A stretch of 64,000 bases of DNA, from positions 3,187 through 67,186 of the forward strand of contig PAZF01000006.1 of assembly GCA_002715505.1 (NCBI GenBank), written 5' to 3'. Numbering within the stretch: position 1 is the first letter of the stretch; each line of letters begins with the position of its first letter. Positions 2,993 to 37,171 of the stretch are shown here, piece by piece. The position numbers were made by a program, and so were the translations under genes. The notes beneath the pieces are model-generated. The model was not told where the DNA came from, ran no database searches, and saw only the letters and a list, made by a program, of their open reading frames with translations. The DNA is from Candidatus Pelagibacterales bacterium. Its GTDB lineage: Bacteria; Pseudomonadota; Alphaproteobacteria; TMED109.

Positions 2993-3671
2993 TTACTCTT
3001 TCCATTTCTAAAAGCTTATTCTTAACTTCATTATACTCCTGACTATTATGTTTTAATAGTCCTTTGAGGACTTTAAACATTTGCTTAGCTTTTAAAAAGT
3101 TTTTTTTTTCATACTCATTATTGCCTAAAACATATAGTGCTAAAAGGTTATTAGGTTCTACTAATAAAATATTATTTAATAATTCTAGAGTTTCCTCTGT
3201 ATGATTATCTTTTTCAATTATTACTCTTATTTGTGTTTCTGCTTTTAAAACTTCTACATTGGAAGGAGAAATATTTCTAGCCCTTTTGTATAATTTTAAA
3301 GCATCTTCTAGGTAGCCTAAAAGAAACTTAGTTTCAGCCAGTTTCAATATAACTTCTAAATTGTTAGGGTCCTTAATAATTTCTTGTTTTAGGTCCTCCA
3401 TAAACTTTTCAATAACAGCAATTTTATTTGCTTCTTGATTTAATATATTAGTTTTGAGTCCAAATTTATCTAACATGGACTCTCCTATCCAAAAATTTGA
3501 TAATTTAAAATAAAAAAAAGTTGATGAAAATGAAAGAATAACTATCGTAAGCATTAATTTAAACCAAATTCTATTTGAAGCTAAATCTAAATTAGATCGC
3601 ACAAAAGCATTAAAACTACAATACATAATAATTGATATTATAAAAAAAATGATTATTAAGTAACTTGTCAA
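2976..3671 (-). CDS. ccmI: Cytochrome c maturation protein CcmI (CycH), TPR protein
   Basis: A 231-residue protein with two N-terminal transmembrane helices (about residues 4-18 and 39-57), then a periplasmic TPR region (about 95-225) with repeats such as LGYLEDALKLYKRA. CcmI is the apocytochrome chaperone that presents the CxxCH peptide to the CcmF/CcmH heme-ligation complex. It is shorter than most alphaproteobacterial CcmI proteins, with few TPRs. Its ATG lies inside the end of ccmH (4-bp overlap), which completes the ccmA-to-ccmI order. Function is assigned from position and architecture. Confidence 0.82.
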   Translation of the reverse strand: MTSYLIIIFFIISIIMYCSFNAFVRSNLDLASNRIWFKLMLTIVILSFSSTFFYFKLSNFWIGESMLDKFGLKTNILNQEANKIAVIEKFMEDLKQEIIKDPNNLEVILKLAETKFLLGYLEDALKLYKRARNISPSNVEVLKAETQIRVIIEKDNHTEETLELLNNILLVEPNNLLALYVLGNNEYEKKNFLKAKQMFKVLKGLLKHNSQEYNEVKNKLLEMERVNEKYN

Positions 3672-4051
3672 TTTCTTCTTTTTTTAATACTAAGATTTCT
3701 ATATGCCAAAAGCCCAATAATAAACAAAGATAATATAGGAGCTAGCCATAAAATCAAATTGCTCTTATTAAGTTTAGGTTTAAATAAAATAAATTCTCCA
3801 TATCTATCAACTAAAAATGATTTTATATCATCTTTGCTTTTTCCCTCTAAATACATTGTTAAAATTAATTCTTTCAAGTCTTTTGCTATTTCAGAGTCAG
3901 ACTCCAATAATGATTGATTTTGACAGACTACACATCTAAGTTCTGCTGCCAGTTCCCTCATTTTTTTTTCTTGTAGAAGATTATTGTTACATAAACTAAA
4001 ATTAGGAATTAATAGCTGGAATATAATCAAAATTTTAATAAAAATTTTCAT
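3668..4051 (-). CDS. ccmH: Cytochrome c maturation protein CcmH (CcmL type)
   Basis: A 127-residue protein with a signal or anchor segment (residues 3-20), the redox motif LRCVVC (C40 and C43) followed by QNQSLLESDS, and a C-terminal transmembrane helix (about 100-119). CcmH reduces the apocytochrome thiols, together with CcmG, before heme attachment in the periplasm. The length and the LRCxxC motif are diagnostic of the short CcmH without a TPR extension; the TPR part is the separate ccmI downstream. Thirteen bases separate it from ccmG. Confidence 0.93.
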   Translation of the reverse strand: MKIFIKILIIFQLLIPNFSLCNNNLLQEKKMRELAAELRCVVCQNQSLLESDSEIAKDLKELILTMYLEGKSKDDIKSFLVDRYGEFILFKPKLNKSNLILWLAPILSLFIIGLLAYRNLSIKKRRN

Positions 4052-4064
4052 AGGTTATTATAAA

Positions 4065-4574
4065 CTATTTAAAAATCATTGGCGCTATATTTTGAAAATC
4101 TTCATTATTTATAGGGCCAACATGCTTATATATGACCTTATTTTCTTTGTTAACAAAAAAAGTTTCTGGGACACCGTAAAGCCCCAGGTGTATAGACTCT
4201 TTTCCAGAAAAGTCATAAAATATATTTTTATATGGATTCCCTAGCTCTTTTAAAAATTTTTTGATATTTTCCTCGCTATCTTTGTAAGCTATCCCTACTA
4301 TTTCATAATCCTTTGAAAAATTTGTAAGTACCTCATGCTCAATCCTGCAAGGCGCACACCATGAAGCAAAAATGTTAATTACTACAGGCCTATTTTCTAT
4401 ATATTCATTAATATTCTGATTATTTTTAAAACTATACATTTCAAGTTTAGGAAAGTTTTTTTGGATTAAAGCAGAGCTTATTGGCTCTAATTCTTTTTGA
4501 AATTTAATTTTGTTATATAAAAAAATTGAAACTATAAAGAATAAAATTAAAGGTGTATATTTTAAAAGCTTCAT
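4065..4574 (-). CDS. ccmG: Thiol:disulfide interchange protein CcmG/DsbE
   Basis: A membrane-anchored periplasmic thioredoxin of 169 residues. The helix at 7-20 is the anchor, and the active site is WCAPC with C73 and C76 in an FASWCAPCRIEHE context. It keeps the apocytochrome c or CcmH cysteines reduced. I place the start at the ATG at 4574, four bases after the ccmF stop. An in-frame ATG at 4616 would add a polar leader inside ccmF and spoil the signal-anchor. The GVPETF motif (cis-proline loop) is present near residue 139. Confidence 0.92.
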   Translation of the reverse strand: MKLLKYTPLILFFIVSIFLYNKIKFQKELEPISSALIQKNFPKLEMYSFKNNQNINEYIENRPVVINIFASWCAPCRIEHEVLTNFSKDYEIVGIAYKDSEENIKKFLKELGNPYKNIFYDFSGKESIHLGLYGVPETFFVNKENKVIYKHVGPINNEDFQNIAPMIFK

Positions 4575-4578
4575 AATA

Positions 4579-6543
4579 TTAATTTTTTGATTTTTTAAGA
4601 GAATGTAATCTACCATCTAATAAAGAAAGTAGCCCACCTAGTGCCATAATAACTGCCCCTAGCCATATAAATAATATATTAGGATTATAATATATTCTTA
4701 TAACCCTATATCCAGATCCCGTTGGTTGCTCCTGCCCCATCACAATGTATAAATGACTAGCAAGGTTTCTCTTAATAGCTGCCTCAGTTGAAGGCATACC
4801 CGTATCAAGATATAATCTTCTTTCTGCTTTCATCTCAAAAGCATTATCTTTACTTTTTACTAAAAATACACCAGTTTCTGAAATCCAATTTTCTTTTTTT
4901 TGTTTTTCTATATTATTAAACTTTATTGTATAATCAGAAACTCGAATCTCGCTTTTTATTTCATTAACTCCTTCATAATAAGTTTTCATTCCTTCTGAAA
5001 GAGAAATTCCTAAGATAAGAATTCCAACTCCCAAGTGCGCTAAATACATACCATAAGAAGATAGTCTAATTTTATTTAACTTATTTAATTTAATTGTAGA
5101 GTATGTGCTTTTATCATTAAGTTTATTTAAAATATCACTTACAATAGATATAAATAGCCAAATAGAAGCAGAAACTCCTAGGATAATTATTAAAGGACCT
5201 CCATATATCAAATAATAAATTGAGATTATAAAAATTAAAACCACTACAAACTTCCAAAACTTTTCATAGATATGTTCTATATTAGTTTTTTTCCAGTTTA
5301 AATTAATACTTATACCGCTTAGAAAAACAGCTGGTAATATTAAAGGCAAAAAAACTATTTTGAAATAAGGTGCTCCAACTGATATATCATTTCCAGAAAC
5401 AGCCTCAATTATTAATGGCCATAATGTTCCTAATAAAATAGTTGATGCAGACGCACATAAAAAAATATTATTTAATAGCAAACCTCCTTCCCGTGATGCT
5501 AAATAGATATTTTTTTTATCTTCTAATTTATCTAATTTTATTGCATATAACAGCAAGGATCCTGCGGTTATTATTACTAAAAAACTTAATATAAATATTC
5601 CTCTAGCTGGATCAGACGCAAATGCATGTACAGATGTTAATAAGCCCGATCTAACAATGAAAGTACCTAGCAAGGTTAATGAAAAAGATAGAATACACAA
5701 AAGAATAGTCCAGCTTTTTAGTCTATCTCTTTTTTCCGTCACCCTTACTGAATGCAATAGCGCTGTAGTTAAAAGCCAAGGCAATAGTGATACATTTTCT
5801 ACAGGATCCCAAAACCACCATCCTCCCCAACCTAATTCGTAATAAGCCCACCAAGAGCCCAAAGTTATTCCTAAAGTTAGGAATATCCAAGAAGTTAATA
5901 TCCAAGGCCTAACCAACTTTGCCCAGGATGCTGAAACTTTTCCTTGTAATAATGCAGCAATAGAATATGAAAAAGGAATTGTTAGACCAACATATCCTAA
6001 ATATAATAAGGGTGGGTGAAATGCTAAGCCAGGATCTTGTAAAACTGGATTTAGCCCTAGTCCTTCATCAGGAACTGGGAAAGTCCTTAAAAAAGGGTTT
6101 GATGTAAATATAGTAAAACCTATAAATCCTAAATTCACTATTGCTAATGTTACTAGAACCTTAAAAGAAAACTCTTTAGGAACTTTTTTTATCAGACTTA
6201 AAAAAACCAGTCCATATATGGAAAGGATAGATAACCACATCAAAAGGGATCCTTCGTGATTTCCCCAGCTTCCTGAAATTTTATATATTAAAGGTTTATT
6301 AGTATGACTATTGTTATAAACATTTAGTATGCTGAAATCTGATTGCACGTAATTTAGTATTAAAATAGAAAAAGAAAATACAATTAAAATAAAAGAGAAA
6401 AATGTTAGTCTTTTTATAGGCTCAAAAAGAGAATATCTGAAACTCAAAGTATTATAATCTACTGAAATAACTAATTGTAAAAAAAATAACAAGAAAGATA
6501 TTATCAAAAATATATGTGCTAGTTCAGATAACATCTTAATCAC
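4579..6543 (-). CDS. ccmF: Cytochrome c heme lyase CcmF
   Basis: A 654-residue polytopic protein, the normal CcmF length. The tryptophan-rich heme-handling motif WGGWWFWDPVEN is at residues 239-250, and HPPLLYLGYVG is near 176-186. CcmF takes heme from holo-CcmE and, with CcmH/CcmI, ligates it to apocytochrome c in the periplasm. The start could be the first ATG (overlapping ccmE by 8 bp) or the ATG three codons later. It sits mid-operon on the minus strand. Confidence 0.95.
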   Translation of the reverse strand: MIKMLSELAHIFLIISFLLFFLQLVISVDYNTLSFRYSLFEPIKRLTFFSFILIVFSFSILILNYVQSDFSILNVYNNSHTNKPLIYKISGSWGNHEGSLLMWLSILSIYGLVFLSLIKKVPKEFSFKVLVTLAIVNLGFIGFTIFTSNPFLRTFPVPDEGLGLNPVLQDPGLAFHPPLLYLGYVGLTIPFSYSIAALLQGKVSASWAKLVRPWILTSWIFLTLGITLGSWWAYYELGWGGWWFWDPVENVSLLPWLLTTALLHSVRVTEKRDRLKSWTILLCILSFSLTLLGTFIVRSGLLTSVHAFASDPARGIFILSFLVIITAGSLLLYAIKLDKLEDKKNIYLASREGGLLLNNIFLCASASTILLGTLWPLIIEAVSGNDISVGAPYFKIVFLPLILPAVFLSGISINLNWKKTNIEHIYEKFWKFVVVLIFIISIYYLIYGGPLIIILGVSASIWLFISIVSDILNKLNDKSTYSTIKLNKLNKIRLSSYGMYLAHLGVGILILGISLSEGMKTYYEGVNEIKSEIRVSDYTIKFNNIEKQKKENWISETGVFLVKSKDNAFEMKAERRLYLDTGMPSTEAAIKRNLASHLYIVMGQEQPTGSGYRVIRIYYNPNILFIWLGAVIMALGGLLSLLDGRLHSLKKSKN

Positions 6544-31265: not shown

Positions 31266-32378
31266 TTAATAATCATTTAAAAAATTTTTATATTTTTTTA
31301 CCCTAGGGTTATTGTTTTCTTCTAAACTTTCATAAAATTCGGCAATAAGTTTTTTTTGCTTATTAGATAAATTAACTGGTGTCTCAATATCAGCTTCCAC
31401 ATATAGGTCACCATAACTCCTAGTTTGCAATACTGGCATACCTTTTCCTTTTAACCTAAACCTTTTTCCATTTTGTGTGCCAGGAGATATACTTATTCTT
31501 ATTTTTTTTCCATTAGGCGAAGGAACTTCTATACTTCCTCCATTAGCAGCTGTATAAATATCTAAAGGTACGTTTAAAAATAAATTCTCACCTTCTCTAT
31601 TAAAAATATTACTATTAACCATATTTACATATATGTACAAGTCTCCTGGAGGTCCAGCGTTTCTTCCTGCTTCTCCTTCGCCAGATATTCTAATCCTAGT
31701 TCCTTCGTCAACTCCCGGAGGAATCTTGACTGATAAAGACTTTTCTTTATTTATTAACCCTGAACCATTACACTTCTTACAAGGATTAGTTATGGTTCTG
31801 CCAGTTCCTGAACAGGAACTACATGTTCTTTCTATGGTGAAGAACCCTTGACTTGATCTTACTTTTCCTGTTCCCTGGCAGGTTGGACATGAGGATATGC
31901 TAGCTTCACCTCCAGAAGAGCCAGTTCCACTGCAAAGATCGCATTTAGAAGGTGCTCTAATTTTAATAGTTTTTTTTATTCCAGAATAAGCTTCCGATAG
32001 ACTTACACCCAAATTATATCTTAAATCTCCCCCTCTATTATTAGAAGTAGTGTTAGATCTTCTAGATCCTCCTGTAAACTCGCTAAATAAATCCTCAAAA
32101 ATATCTGAAAATCCACCGGCCTGAAACCCAGAAAATCCACTAGCTCCGGAGCCTCCTCCTTCAAACGCAGCATGGCCGTAATTATCATATGCTGCTCTTT
32201 TTTCTTTATCTTTTAAAACTTCATAAGCTTGGCTCGCCTCTTTAAACTTTTCTGCAGCCTCTTTATTGTCTGGATTTCTATCTGGATGATATTTCATAGC
32301 CAGATCTCTATATGCTCTTTTGAGAGATGCGTCATCCGCATTTTTATTTACACCTAAAATTTCATAGTAATCTCTCAT
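31266..32378 (-). CDS. dnaJ: Chaperone DnaJ (Hsp40)
   Basis: 370 residues. The J domain holds HPD at 31-33. A Gly/Phe-rich linker (about 73-105) comes next, then the zinc finger with four CxxCxGxG repeats (about 143-210) and the C-terminal substrate-binding domains. It stimulates the DnaK ATPase and delivers unfolded clients. The gap to dnaK is 18 bp. Confidence 0.97.
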
Positions 32379-32396: not shown

Positions 32397-34352
32397 TTAA
32401 CTACTTTTTTTTTCAGAGTCTTCTTCGACTTCTTCAAAGTCAGCATCAACTACATTTTCATCTTTTGTATCTTTAGAGTTTTTTTCAGAAGCTTCGCTGT
32501 CTGCTTTAGATTTTTGACCCTCCTCTGCTTGCTGGTTTTGAGGGTTTTGCTTATACATAATTTCTCCTAACTTCATCGCAGCCGTGTTTAGTTCTTCCAA
32601 TTTAGTTTTAATATCAGTGGCTTCTGCATTTTCATTTTTAAGAGTCTCTTTTAAGTCCTCGATTGCCTTTTCTATATTTTCTTTATCTTTTACTTCAAGC
32701 TTATCGCCATGCTCTTTTAAGCTTTTCTCCGTAGAATAAACCATGCTGTCTGCCTGATTTCTAGTTTCTACTGCCTCTTTCTTTGACTTATCTTCTTCAG
32801 CATGAGTCTGTGCTTCATTAACCATTTTGTCTATGTCTGCATCTGACAAACCTCCTGAAGCCTGTATTTGAATTTGTTGTTCTTTTCCAGTTCCTTTGTC
32901 TTTAGCTGAAACGTTTACTATTCCATTAGCATCTATGTCAAAAGTAACTTCGATTTGTGGAACACCTCTTGGAGCAGGTGGTATACCTACTAAATCAAAC
33001 TGGCCTAAAGCTTTATTATCTTTAGCCATTTCCCTCTCTCCTTGAAAAACTCTTATAGTTACTGCAGGTTGATTATCGTCAGCTGTAGAAAAAGTTTGGC
33101 TTTTTCTCGTTGGAATGGTGGTGTTTCTATCTATTAATCTGGTAAATACACCTCCCAATGTTTCTATACCAAGGGAAAGTGGAGTTACATCCAATAGTAG
33201 AACATCTTTTACATCTCCAGATAAAACAGCGCCTTGTATTGCCGCCCCAATTCCCACAACTTCATCAGGATTTACACCTTTATTAGGATCTTTTCCAAAA
33301 AACTCTTTAACAGTTTGAATAATTTTTGGCATTCTTGTCATGCCACCGACCAAAACTACTTCATCTATTTCATTAGCACTTATTCCTGCATCTTTTAATG
33401 CGGCTCTACAAGGATCAATAGTTCTTTTAACTAAATCATCAACTAATTTCTCCAAATCTGCTCTTGTCATTTTCAAAGTAAGATGCTTAGGGCCAGAAGC
33501 GTCAGCAGTTATAAAAGGTAAATTTATGTCGGTTGTACTAGAGCTAGAAAGCTCAATTTTTGCCTTTTCAGCTGCTTCTTTAAGTCTTTGTAATGCTAAT
33601 TTATCATTTTTTAAATCTATACCATTTTCTTTTTTAAAAGCATCTGCCAAAAACTCTACAATTCTTGTATCAAAGTCCTCTCCTCCTAAAAATGTATCAC
33701 CATTGGTAGCCTTTACCTCAAAAACCCCATCACCTATTTCCAATATAGAAACATCAAAAGTTCCTCCACCTAAATCATAGACTGCAATGGTTCCAGTTTT
33801 TTTCTTATCTAATCCATATGCAAGTGCCGCAGCAGTCGGTTCATTTATAATTCTTAAAACCTCAAGACCTGCAATTTTTCCTGCGTCTTTTGTAGCCTGT
33901 CTTTGTGCATCATTAAAATAAGCAGGCACTGTAATTACAGCTTTATCAACTTTAGCACCAATGTGTTTCTCCGCCGTTTCTTTCATTTTTTGCAGAACAT
34001 ATGCTGATATCTGACTGGGGGCATATTTTTTCCCGTTTGCCTCAACCCATGCATCATTATTATCAGCTTTAACTATATTATAAGGAGCAGTTTTAATTTC
34101 TTTTTGAACTTTTTCATCCTTAAAAGTTCTGCCTATTAATCTTTTAATTGCATATAAAGTATTCGTAGGATTAGTGACAGCCTGTCTTTTAGCTGGTTGT
34201 CCTATCAAAGTTTCTCCTTCGCTAGAAAATGCAACCATTGAAGGTGTGGTTCTAGTTCCTTCACTGTTTTCAATTACTTGTGCGCTAGATCCTTCCATTA
34301 CTGCTACACAAGAATTTGTAGTACCAAGATCTATTCCAATTACTTTACTCAT
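32397..34352 (-). CDS. dnaK: Chaperone DnaK (Hsp70)
   Basis: 651 residues. The nucleotide-binding domain starts [16 protein letters not shown], has the phosphate-2 motif [11 protein letters not shown] and [11 protein letters not shown], then the linker [16 protein letters not shown]. The substrate-binding domain and lid end in an acidic tail ([12 protein letters not shown]). A strong AAAGGAG ribosome site sits before the ATG. It is the main heat-shock chaperone and works with DnaJ and GrpE of the same operon. No CIRCE element precedes it. Confidence 0.98.
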
Positions 34353-34413
34353 AATTAAGCTCCTTTATTATCAACTAATTACATATGGGTTTTAATAATG
34401 TAAATTACAAGGC

Positions 34414-35391
34414 CTAAACTAAAATCTCCGATGCCTCAATAATTTGGTCAAGTTTTTCAAGATAAATTTTATTTTCTAATTCGATTTTGCTAGATAATTC
34501 AAAAACAGAACTAATGATTACTATTTTAGTTTCTAACACTTTTATTCTATACCAAATCTTATTTTGTATAATATTGCTTTCCTCTGATAGTTTCTCTTTT
34601 GCTAAAAAATAAAATAAGTAATCATTATTTTCAGATTTTTTTAATTTTGCATCAGTAATAGATACTTCTCTGGTAATTTCTTCAATTAGCTTTTCAACAA
34701 CTTTATCTTTATTTTCAGACTTACTACTTTTTAGGTTTATATCAAATTTTTCTATAAGAAAATGGAAATTCTTATTTAAGTTCATATAAATCTTTGCAAA
34801 GTTTTTATTATCTGAAAAATCTGCAATCCACTTCGTAGGTATTTTAAGATTAAAGATATTCCAAAACTTATAGTTTTTGTACTTAGCGCTTGCTAGCTTG
34901 TATTCTAAACTAGCTAAATCGTCATAAAGAGTTTTAGAAAAGTTAAATTTAATTGCATCAATAATGCTTGGAATTCTTTTTAAAATTGGCTTTACAAGCC
35001 CATCTGCTTCATTATTGTCAGGCCATGTTAGAGAAATTCTTAGCAATCGAAAAGATCTAGGTTTCAAATAATGGAGGATTTTCCATATGACTAATTTTTC
35101 ATTTTCTACTTTTACTTCATAGTTTAATTTAAAAAAATTTTCATCTCTTATTATAACATTAGTATTAATATTTAAATTATCGCATAAGAACTCTTTAATC
35201 TTCTCGATTTTATTAAGCTTAGGATTTTCAAAACATTCTAAATTTATTCCGAGGGCAGGATATTTGTCTTTTGAAAAAGTTACTTCTAATGTTTTCAAAC
35301 TTTTTTTAGTGATGTTAGCTTCCTCTGGGAAAAACATCGTAACTGTTTTATTTAGAAGATCGATTTTTTTTTTTTTATCAGTCAAGTTCAT
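34414..35391 (-). CDS. Unknown protein with two related domains, between grpE and dnaK
   Basis: 325 residues, no signal peptide and no membrane helix, lysine-rich. I do not recognise the family. It looks internally duplicated. Residues about 14-151 and 175-323 share one order of elements: a short strand, a long strand pair, a helix, a strand pair containing W(K/Y)(I/R) and then an RLLRISLTW or KIVIISSVFEL strand, then a helix ending in IIDAI or IIEAS. This order resembles the PsbP/DcrB-like alpha-beta fold, but that is inference. It overlaps grpE by 14 bp and is co-oriented with dnaK, so it is probably a heat-shock-operon member. Confidence 0.7.
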   Translation of the reverse strand: MNLTDKKKKIDLLNKTVTMFFPEEANITKKSLKTLEVTFSKDKYPALGINLECFENPKLNKIEKIKEFLCDNLNINTNVIIRDENFFKLNYEVKVENEKLVIWKILHYLKPRSFRLLRISLTWPDNNEADGLVKPILKRIPSIIDAIKFNFSKTLYDDLASLEYKLASAKYKNYKFWNIFNLKIPTKWIADFSDNKNFAKIYMNLNKNFHFLIEKFDINLKSSKSENKDKVVEKLIEEITREVSITDAKLKKSENNDYLFYFLAKEKLSEESNIIQNKIWYRIKVLETKIVIISSVFELSSKIELENKIYLEKLDQIIEASEILV

Positions 35392-36055
35392 CTTTTTGAG
35401 GTTTTTCTACAGTCTCCTCTTCTAGTTCATTTTTTTCCTCTGATTTTTCGCTTTTTTGAGATATGCCAACCATTGCAGGTCTCAATAATCTGTCATGAAA
35501 TGTATAACCGTCTTGAACAATTTCACAAACAACTCCTGGTTCATACTCCTCTGTAGGTTTTTCAAACATTGCTTGATGAAGGTTTGCGTCAAAAGGATTA
35601 CCTAAAGCATCTATTTTTTTTACGTTAAATTTGTCTAAAATATTGGTAATATCTTTTTGTATTAGCTCAAAACCTTCCAAAGTTTTCTTTTCAGTAGTTT
35701 CTAAAACACTATTTATTGCTCTTTCAAAATTATCTACAACATTGACAAGCTCTCTTGCTAAAGGTTGGACTCCATATTTAATAATATCGACCCTAGTTTT
35801 TTCAGATTGTTTTCTAATATTCTCATTTTCCGCAAGGACTCTGAGAAGCTTATCTTTAGTTTCGGCTAACTCGCTCTTTAGTTCCTTTAGAGGATCCTTG
35901 AGTTCCTCGCTTTCTTTTTCTTCATCATTTGCTTGATTATTTTCAGACTCTTTTTTTTCTTCAATTGATTTTATTTCATTTTCAGAAGCAACTTTATCAT
36001 CTGTCTGATTATCTTTAATGTTATTTAGGTCAGATTCTTTTTTTTCTTCATTCAT
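35378..36055 (-). CDS. grpE: Nucleotide exchange factor GrpE
   Basis: 225 residues. A long acidic, low-complexity N-terminal region (about 1-60) precedes the coiled-coil helix (ELAETKDKLLRVLAENENIRKQ, about residues 62-83) and the C-terminal beta-wing, with NPFDANLHQAMFEKP (about 153-167) and VCEIVQDGYTFHDRLLRPAMV (about 174-194), the GrpE signature. It speeds ADP release from DnaK. It lies 48 bp after hrcA. Confidence 0.96.
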   Translation of the reverse strand: MNEEKKESDLNNIKDNQTDDKVASENEIKSIEEKKESENNQANDEEKESEELKDPLKELKSELAETKDKLLRVLAENENIRKQSEKTRVDIIKYGVQPLARELVNVVDNFERAINSVLETTEKKTLEGFELIQKDITNILDKFNVKKIDALGNPFDANLHQAMFEKPTEEYEPGVVCEIVQDGYTFHDRLLRPAMVGISQKSEKSEEKNELEEETVEKPQKDELD

Positions 36056-36103
36056 AATTTATCCTTTTAATTATAAATAGGGTTTAATAATTTAACTACA
36101 AGA

Positions 36104-37171
36104 TCAACTCAAAAATTTATTTAAAACTTTTGCGGTAAAATCCACCATCGGAATAATTCTAGCATAATTGAGTCTAGATGGCCCAATTACTCCAATAGCA
36201 CCAAGAGTATTAGGTTTTATAGATTTTCCTGAACGTTTTAAAGGAGCTATTATCATAGAACAACCTGCTAGATTAAAAACCTTAGTATTAGATCCTATAA
36301 AAACGTGAACACCCATTCCTTTGAGGGTATATTGTAGAATATTTATAAAGTTTTTTTTATCTTGAATCTCATTTAATAAAGTGTCTAATCTTTTAATGTC
36401 TTCTTTTTGTTCCATTTTTCCATAAAATAGATCTCTTCTATTTATTAAAAAATGAGAATCTCCTTTATCTACACTTTTGACAGCAATACCTGCTGATACC
36501 AATTGCTCAGATAATTTTTCCACTTCTGTATTTTTTAATGTTAACTCTTCTTTAATTGTATTTTTAACTTCAAATAAAGTTTTACCATAAGTTTTAGAGT
36601 TTATATAATTTGATGCTTCTATCAAAGCAGAGCTGGTAAAACCCCCCGGTAATTCAACTAATCTATTTTCTACCAGTCCATTAACATCTATTGTTATAAC
36701 TAATGCGCGATGGTCGTCCATAGACACAAATTCAATATGTTTTAATGGCCTATCAATGTTATTAGGTGCAAATACTAAAGATGTACAGTTAGACAAACCA
36801 GATAATTCCTTGGAAGAATGGTCTAAAACTTCCATTATAGTTTTCCCAGCTACAGAGCATTTTGCTTGGATGCTATCTCTCTCTTCAGAAGTTAAGTCTC
36901 CTATTTCTAAAATACCATCAACAAAAAACTTTAGTCCTTTATCAGTAGGTATTCTTCCAGAAGATGTGTGAGGAGAATAAAGAAGCCCTCTTTCTTCAAG
37001 ATTGGACATAATAAGCCTTACTGTTGAAGGCGAAAGCATGGAATTTAAACTTTCTGATATCACTTTTGAAGAAACAGGTGTTCCTGTATTCAAGTAGGAG
37101 TCAACTATTTCACTTAAAATTATTCGGGCTCTATCGCCAACGTCATTAATATTTTCTAATTTACTATTCAT
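36104..37171 (-). CDS. hrcA: Heat-inducible transcription repressor HrcA
   Basis: 355 residues: an N-terminal winged helix (LNSMLSPSTVRLIMSNLEERGLLYSPHTSSGRIPTDKGLKFFVD, about 47-90), the GAF-like core, and a C-terminal IGVIGPSRLNYARIIPMVDF motif (about 326-345). HrcA represses heat-shock genes by binding CIRCE (TTAGCACTC-N9-GAGTGCTAA). No CIRCE copy is seen before hrcA, grpE or dnaK here, so its target may be groESL elsewhere. It diverges from rph across 53 bp. Confidence 0.95.
   Translation of the reverse strand: MNSKLENINDVGDRARIILSEIVDSYLNTGTPVSSKVISESLNSMLSPSTVRLIMSNLEERGLLYSPHTSSGRIPTDKGLKFFVDGILEIGDLTSEERDSIQAKCSVAGKTIMEVLDHSSKELSGLSNCTSLVFAPNNIDRPLKHIEFVSMDDHRALVITIDVNGLVENRLVELPGGFTSSALIEASNYINSKTYGKTLFEVKNTIKEELTLKNTEVEKLSEQLVSAGIAVKSVDKGDSHFLINRRDLFYGKMEQKEDIKRLDTLLNEIQDKKNFINILQYTLKGMGVHVFIGSNTKVFNLAGCSMIIAPLKRSGKSIKPNTLGAIGVIGPSRLNYARIIPMVDFTAKVLNKFLS

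Follow-up and report, generated by a model that had tools for sequence, protein, structure and literature searches.

The 64,000-nt stretch of DNA analysed here, referred to as the window, carries the gene order hrcA-grpE-X-dnaK-dnaJ-dapB, with rph divergent from hrcA (Table 1). The coordinates of the reading frames (grpE ends at 35378) agree with the initial annotation, which described X as a 325-residue reading frame overlapping grpE by 14 bp and followed by dnaK, and its description of the product as soluble is matched by the lack of any membrane-length hydrophobic stretch in X (highest 19-residue hydropathy mean, 1.17). No signal peptide was evident in X by eye, and no paralogues of X were found in its own genome. 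The start of X (window 35340-35391) is a run of A bases encoding KKKK, the kind of homopolymer that easily gives rise to frameshift errors, and relatives from the same genus have approximately five extra residues at their N-terminal start.

Table 1. Positions in the window of gene X, its predicted domains, the neighboring heat-shock genes and the candidate promoters.
Feature	Position	Strand	Description and evidence
hrcA	36104..37171	minus	PF01628, E 2.9e-44
Putative RpoH-like promoter ahead of grpE-X	36075..36102	minus	CTTG-N16-CCCTATTT, right behind the hrcA stop
grpE	35378..36055	minus	PF01025, E 2.8e-49; 14 bp shared with X
Gene X	34414..35391	minus	325-aa soluble protein, two tandem domains of predicted PsbP/Mog1/DcrB fold; ORF, homologues at the same place, AF2 model (pLDDT 83.9)
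N-terminal domain of X (residues 6-150)	34942..35376	minus	Strands, then a terminal helix; AF2 secondary structure
C-terminal domain of X (residues 167-325)	34417..34893	minus	AF2; same domain stands alone in f52 genomes
Putative RpoH-like promoter between X and dnaK	34383..34411	minus	CTTG-N18-CCCATAT, starting 3 bp past the X stop
dnaK	32397..34352	minus	ORF translation; start 61 bp past the end of X
dnaJ	31266..32378	minus	ORF translation; J-domain and zinc-finger repeats by eye

Profile searches detected X in 23 of the 28 genomes of its own order (GTDB TMED109), including all ten of those at least 90% complete, and in all 23 genomes grpE lies directly before X and dnaK directly after it. 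In all 20 loci that were read from the order, the start of X either overlaps the grpE stop or lies within approximately 25 bp of it. Carriers include high-GC members of 2.5-3.8 Mb and, among the named matches, MarineAlpha9_Bin3 and TMED109; some X-bearing MAGs of the order are presumably sponge-associated. Among the five genomes without X, three assemblies lack dnaK (their weak matches in the dnaK search are, we assume, MreB), a fourth has a dnaK truncated by the end of a contig, and the fifth, G008 (L045, 59% complete), has adjacent grpE and dnaK without X and without an RpoH-like site. G008 is assigned to the same family, with a DnaK of just 70% identity, and could be divergent or wrongly placed. 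A further X locus, on a contig of a MAG titled Thermoanaerobaculia (L062, JAJDZH010000337.1), closely matches the alphaproteobacterial genus g7, and this contig is probably a binning error.

Gene X is a real gene. A chance reading frame or a mis-called gene was ruled out by the conservation of X across 23 of the 28 genomes and by dN/dS ratios of 0.04 to 0.24, below 1 in all eight pairs compared, which indicate purifying selection, and a recent mobile insertion was ruled out since both the gene and its place are common to the order. X diverges faster than its neighbors, its identity within the genus being 52-56%, versus 95-97% for DnaK (first 478 residues; three same-genus genomes); this is unusual for a core co-chaperone and counts against the accessory role proposed below.

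X is not a one-off insertion but belongs to a family found in several alphaproteobacterial families, reaching well beyond the TMED109 lineage. In a sample of 385 genomes across the class, a two-domain profile (A1) gave nine matches and a C-domain profile (A7) gave 14, each count including the five from the order itself, and in a phylum-wide sample X was found by profile A2 in one of 398 genomes, that of the window. In two other families, and in part of a third family, f52, related proteins with one or two domains are encoded immediately ahead of dnaK. In f118 (L101) an X fragment cut by the contig start is located directly upstream of dnaK, and in f65 (L100) the order is hrcA-grpE-small protein-DUF1848-like gene-X-dnaK-dnaJ. 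In family f52, which is probably Azospirillaceae by our assumption, X proteins have one domain in some genomes (frames of about 160-240 aa) and two in others; the order containing its member G201 carries X in 67 of 82 genomes and in 8 of 13 genera, with no detectable X in five f52 genera. In f52, dnaK followed X on the same strand in 12 of the 15 regions covered over 8.5-9.2 kb and, within 1.5 kb, in 22 of 31 loci taken from 31 of the 67 carriers. The nine misses were eight genomes of g163, presumably Niveispirillum, and G840, in which dnaK is 3.7 kb away.

Several features of these distant loci were recorded. In g163, X lies away from dnaK (L098 of G201, 3164-5632; L099 of G833), and in the annotated region, L098, an X with a long acidic C-terminal tail is found between an AlkB-like 2OG-Fe(II) oxygenase gene and a fur-family gene. 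Between grpE and X, f65 and f52 genomes repeatedly carry a DUF1848 gene in the opposite orientation (L087, 3033-3905; L100, 5328-6272; L089-L091), the Pfam assignment having been made for the L087 copy. Several f52 genomes encode, close to X and dnaK, a protein of approximately 90 residues whose start resembles MxDRRxxLALAIKSCLDSL (L091, 4572-4868; similar in L085 and L086); its L091 copy had no Pfam match. Matches in f114, f127, f93 and f78 were weak and away from dnaK, and were left out of the X family.

The conserved genomic link to dnaK expected of a co-chaperone gene was found, with exceptions in g163 of f52 and in one genome of the order. The main rival to the client-holding proposal developed below is that X performs an unrelated cytosolic task, such as binding a lipid, a cofactor or an envelope precursor, and has been kept beside grpE and dnaK through vertical descent, being heat-induced by proximity. 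This explanation, which we regard as possible if somewhat doubtful, would fit the fast evolution of X, the g163 arrangement in which X, away from dnaK, adjoins an alkB-like gene and a gene of the fur family, the five f52 genera without X, and the presence of other genes, for example DUF1848, between grpE and X in f52 and f65. It fits less well with co-location kept in four families across large changes in genome size and GC, and with the overlap or close spacing of X and grpE in every locus read in the order. Conversely, the fact that X is not universal, as seen in G008, in the five f52 genera and in the g163 location away from dnaK, counts against an accessory role for X with DnaK.

The regions on both sides of grpE-X contain candidate heat-shock promoters. 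The pattern CTTG-N16-18-C[CT][ACT]AT was found between X and dnaK in all 23 X-bearing genomes of the order and also in L101 and L100, while reversed controls for these 25 loci gave no match. The same pattern was absent ahead of dnaK in the 26 f52 loci searched; GTTGCA...CCTATAT was seen by eye ahead of dnaK in many f52 loci and was left uncounted. The 1.7-Mb genome contains only two matches to the strict form, CTTGN17-18CCCATAT, one ahead of dnaK and the other ahead of an Hsp20 gene, and the reversed control contains none. Because the shorter pattern CTTGN17-18CCCAT was no rarer in the window than expected by chance (one match versus 0.44 expected), it is the strict form, together with conservation, that carries the weight. 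The X-dnaK site resembles the Rhizobium etli RpoH motif, given as cTTGaa-N16-CgATaT in the part of the published study consulted (PMC4167512).

Behind the hrcA stop, CTTGTA was present in all 15 low-GC relatives with a readable hrcA-grpE junction, and a looser full promoter pattern was present in 12 of these 15, compared with 0 of 18 reversed sequences. No such promoter was found there in three genomes of g7, a high-GC genus, that have hrcA 1.7-2.4 kb away. The putative promoter upstream of grpE is a loose match, and this was counted against the accessory reading. Most likely, X is the second gene of a grpE-X unit that has its own similar promoter, and dnaK-dnaJ form a separate heat-shock unit. 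Given the RpoH-like promoter lying between X and dnaK, the neighbor expressed together with X is probably grpE and not dnaK.

No model in Pfam, NCBIfam, PADLOC or PHROGs describes X. Neither DUF1795 (PF08786) nor the PsbP profile (PF01789) was among the matches at E values up to 1 when 19 full members, 22 C domains and six distant members were searched. The weak Pfam and NCBIfam matches, to IPT, DUF5605 (E 0.0059), 4HBT_3 (E 0.0022) and NF011298 (E 0.00083, in two of 19 members), were judged to be due to chance because they differed between members and fell below the cut-offs where cut-offs were shown. The only match in a PDB sequence search, Sonic hedgehog (E 1.6), and the weak PHROGs matches (E 0.037 or worse) were also taken as chance; PADLOC returned zero matches. 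Of 35 pattern matches in viral_contigs, none was confirmed as a viral relative of X, and no plasmid relatives were found for one f52 member. In the parts of open-access PMC papers that the literature search reached, no paper on such a gene between grpE and dnaK was found. X is a new, unnamed family whose fold is known; the family, its tandem cytosolic form and its Hsp70 setting are new to the open-access PMC literature searched.

The adjacency of hrcA, grpE and X, with RpoH-like promoters on both sides, would be consistent with a regulatory role, in which X holds RpoH or HrcA beside the genes under its control. Family-profile searches found no DNA-binding domain and no sigma-binding family in X, and such regulation of the heat-shock response is considered very unlikely.

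The two halves of X had been described as repeating the same order of elements, and this was confirmed both by the presence of the named motifs, IWKILHYLKPRSFRLLRISL in the N half and IWYRIKVLETKIVIISS in the C half, with half-ending helices SIIDAIKF and QIIEASEI, and by profile scores above those of shuffled controls. With profiles from 19 family members, hhalign aligned the N half to the C half over 129 co-linear columns (score 33.9, probability 61, P 8e-5), whereas 200 shuffles of the C-half columns gave a mean score of 12.1 and a maximum of 20.0, and reversed halves gave 13.8 and 14.2. A wider set of two-domain members raised the probability to 80 and the score to 38.3 (the highest of 100 shuffled scores was 19.3). 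When the N domain was aligned with A7, a broader alignment of C domains, the probability was 91 (P 8.9e-7). These profile comparisons indicate that the two halves are homologous and that the duplication is beyond chance. The residues invariant in the alignment of the 19 members (F39, Y44, P45, L47, P57, R112, R115, F149, D157, W177, P185, W188 and W280) are known as alignment positions and as such do not show a binding site, which was also counted against the accessory reading.

AF2 models were built with 12 sequences for the window protein (pLDDT 83.9, pTM 0.76) and for its MarineAlpha9 orthologue (pLDDT 88.4, pTM 0.79), which are approximately 20% identical, and both models contain two alpha-beta domains. 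The fold was placed by Foldseek and VIA-align; for the second model, mainly the C domain was covered among the matches listed. Compared with PsbP, Mog1, DcrB and EagT6/SciW, the C domains of both models gave Z scores of about 9 to 12.7. The C domain of the window model matched 3lyd (Z 12.0), cyanobacterial PsbP 2xb3 (Z 11.2), EagT6 6xrf (Z 10.7, 113 aligned, rmsd 2.8), Mog1 1jhs (Z 10.0) and DcrB 6e8a (Z 9.2), and the MarineAlpha9 model matched 2xb3 (Z 12.7), Mog1 1eq6 (Z 11.2) and DcrB 6e8a (Z 10.5). The N domain of the window model matched BT_1490 3hlz (Z 11.4, 131 aligned, rmsd 3.4) and Tsi3 4luq (Z 9.2, 118 aligned, rmsd 3.6). Foldseek results for the second model were weaker, with three matches at E 0.001 or better, one of them PsbP; its matches to polyketide cyclases and KICSTOR had rmsd values above 13 and were set aside. 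The models of two orthologues and their structural matches thus favor, at the level of prediction, the PsbP/DcrB-like two-domain protein guessed in the initial annotation, and support assignment of both C domains and of the N domain of the window model to the PsbP/Mog1/DcrB/Eag/Tsi3 fold.

Mog1 releases nucleotide from Ran, and its place among the structural matches, together with the tight coupling of X to grpE, raises the alternative that X modulates the nucleotide cycle of DnaK, or GrpE directly, and is not a client binder. Mog1 is, however, only one among many equal matches and DnaK is already served by GrpE, which makes such a modulator improbable.

The heat-shock setting, the neighbor link to dnaK and the helix-gripping fold of Eag and TplEi point to an accessory that holds clients or modulates DnaK/GrpE. 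We tentatively favor, at rather less than an even chance, a cytosolic accessory of DnaK and GrpE that grips exposed hydrophobic segments of clients. According to this proposal, grpE and X would share a transcript started at an RpoH-like promoter of their own after hrcA, and X would rise with GrpE under heat. The two domains of X might act as a built-in dimer that, much as Eag chaperones and TplEi hold their partners, grips hydrophobic or helical stretches exposed by proteins as they unfold, and X could hand these clients to DnaK or alter their release by GrpE and DnaK; the grip and the hand-over are the least certain steps. The earlier suggestion that X may act with Hsp70 or protect under heat draws its support from context, namely the conserved place, the heat-shock-type promoters and purifying selection. 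Against an accessory role, the PsbP-type fold serves many unrelated tasks.

The DnaK-DnaJ-GrpE cycle is usually regarded as complete with these three proteins. A constrained extra protein at grpE, present order-wide and beside dnaK elsewhere, suggests that some alphaproteobacteria need an added step, and the tie of its fold to holders of hydrophobic helices makes the idea directly testable in Azospirillum-like strains. In the broadest form of the proposal, which we consider unlikely as a whole, X would represent a kind of Hsp70 partner not described before: a holdase or adaptor of the cytosol, with one or two PsbP/Eag-fold domains, that is heat-induced with GrpE and delivers clients, perhaps segments of membrane helices, to DnaK in a number of alphaproteobacterial families. 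In this form of the proposal, the place of X would also serve as an uncommon gene-order marker linking MarineAlpha9/TMED109, a contested AT-rich lineage, with Rhodospirillales-like bacteria and not with Rickettsiales. Published trees, as far as described in the portion of the source available (PMC8879329), place MarineAlpha9/TMED109 near Rickettsiales, with compositional bias suspected, and the common gene and place of X may help to settle this branching.

Comparison with known systems sets X apart from each of them. X shares a gene cluster and a similar promoter type with GrpE, DnaJ and HrcA; no sequence relation to them was seen, and X adds to these three proteins, all of which are encoded in the window, and replaces none. 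PsbP is an exported single-domain photosystem protein. PsbP/CyanoP is among the strongest C-domain matches (2xb3, 141 aligned), but X has two domains, no evident signal peptide and only 6-8% identity with 2xb3. The TplEi immunity protein is periplasmic. TplEi/Tli4, a type VI secretion (T6SS) immunity protein, is two-domain like X and matches it in both domains (5h7z, Z 8.7 for the N domain; 5h7y, Z 9.7 and 11.3 for the C domains), but confers immunity to a phospholipase effector, and for comparison with Tsi3 and TplEi no toxin or cognate T6SS effector gene was found beside X in the loci annotated. In the section of the structural report consulted, a hydrophobic groove in one of the TplEi domains accommodates a helical peptide (PMC5611513). 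DcrB shares the Mog1/PsbP fold, and so does one domain of the two-domain protein PA1624, whose second domain, in the part of the report available (PMC7716261), is OmpA-like with no repeat; unlike X, both are periplasmic. Eag chaperones (DUF1795, EagT6/SciW) resemble X in C-domain fold, in being cytosolic and in using a pair of such domains, as a dimer in Eag and in tandem in X. They differ in that an effector gene adjoins Eag, whereas X adjoins hrcA, grpE, dnaK and dnaJ and no gene for a transmembrane-domain effector was seen. According to the excerpt of the published work consulted (PMC7773334), Eag chaperones form a domain-swapped dimer shaped like a claw, within which transmembrane helices are gripped, and the tandem domains in the models of X would be compatible with such a claw-shaped pair with a hydrophobic palm.
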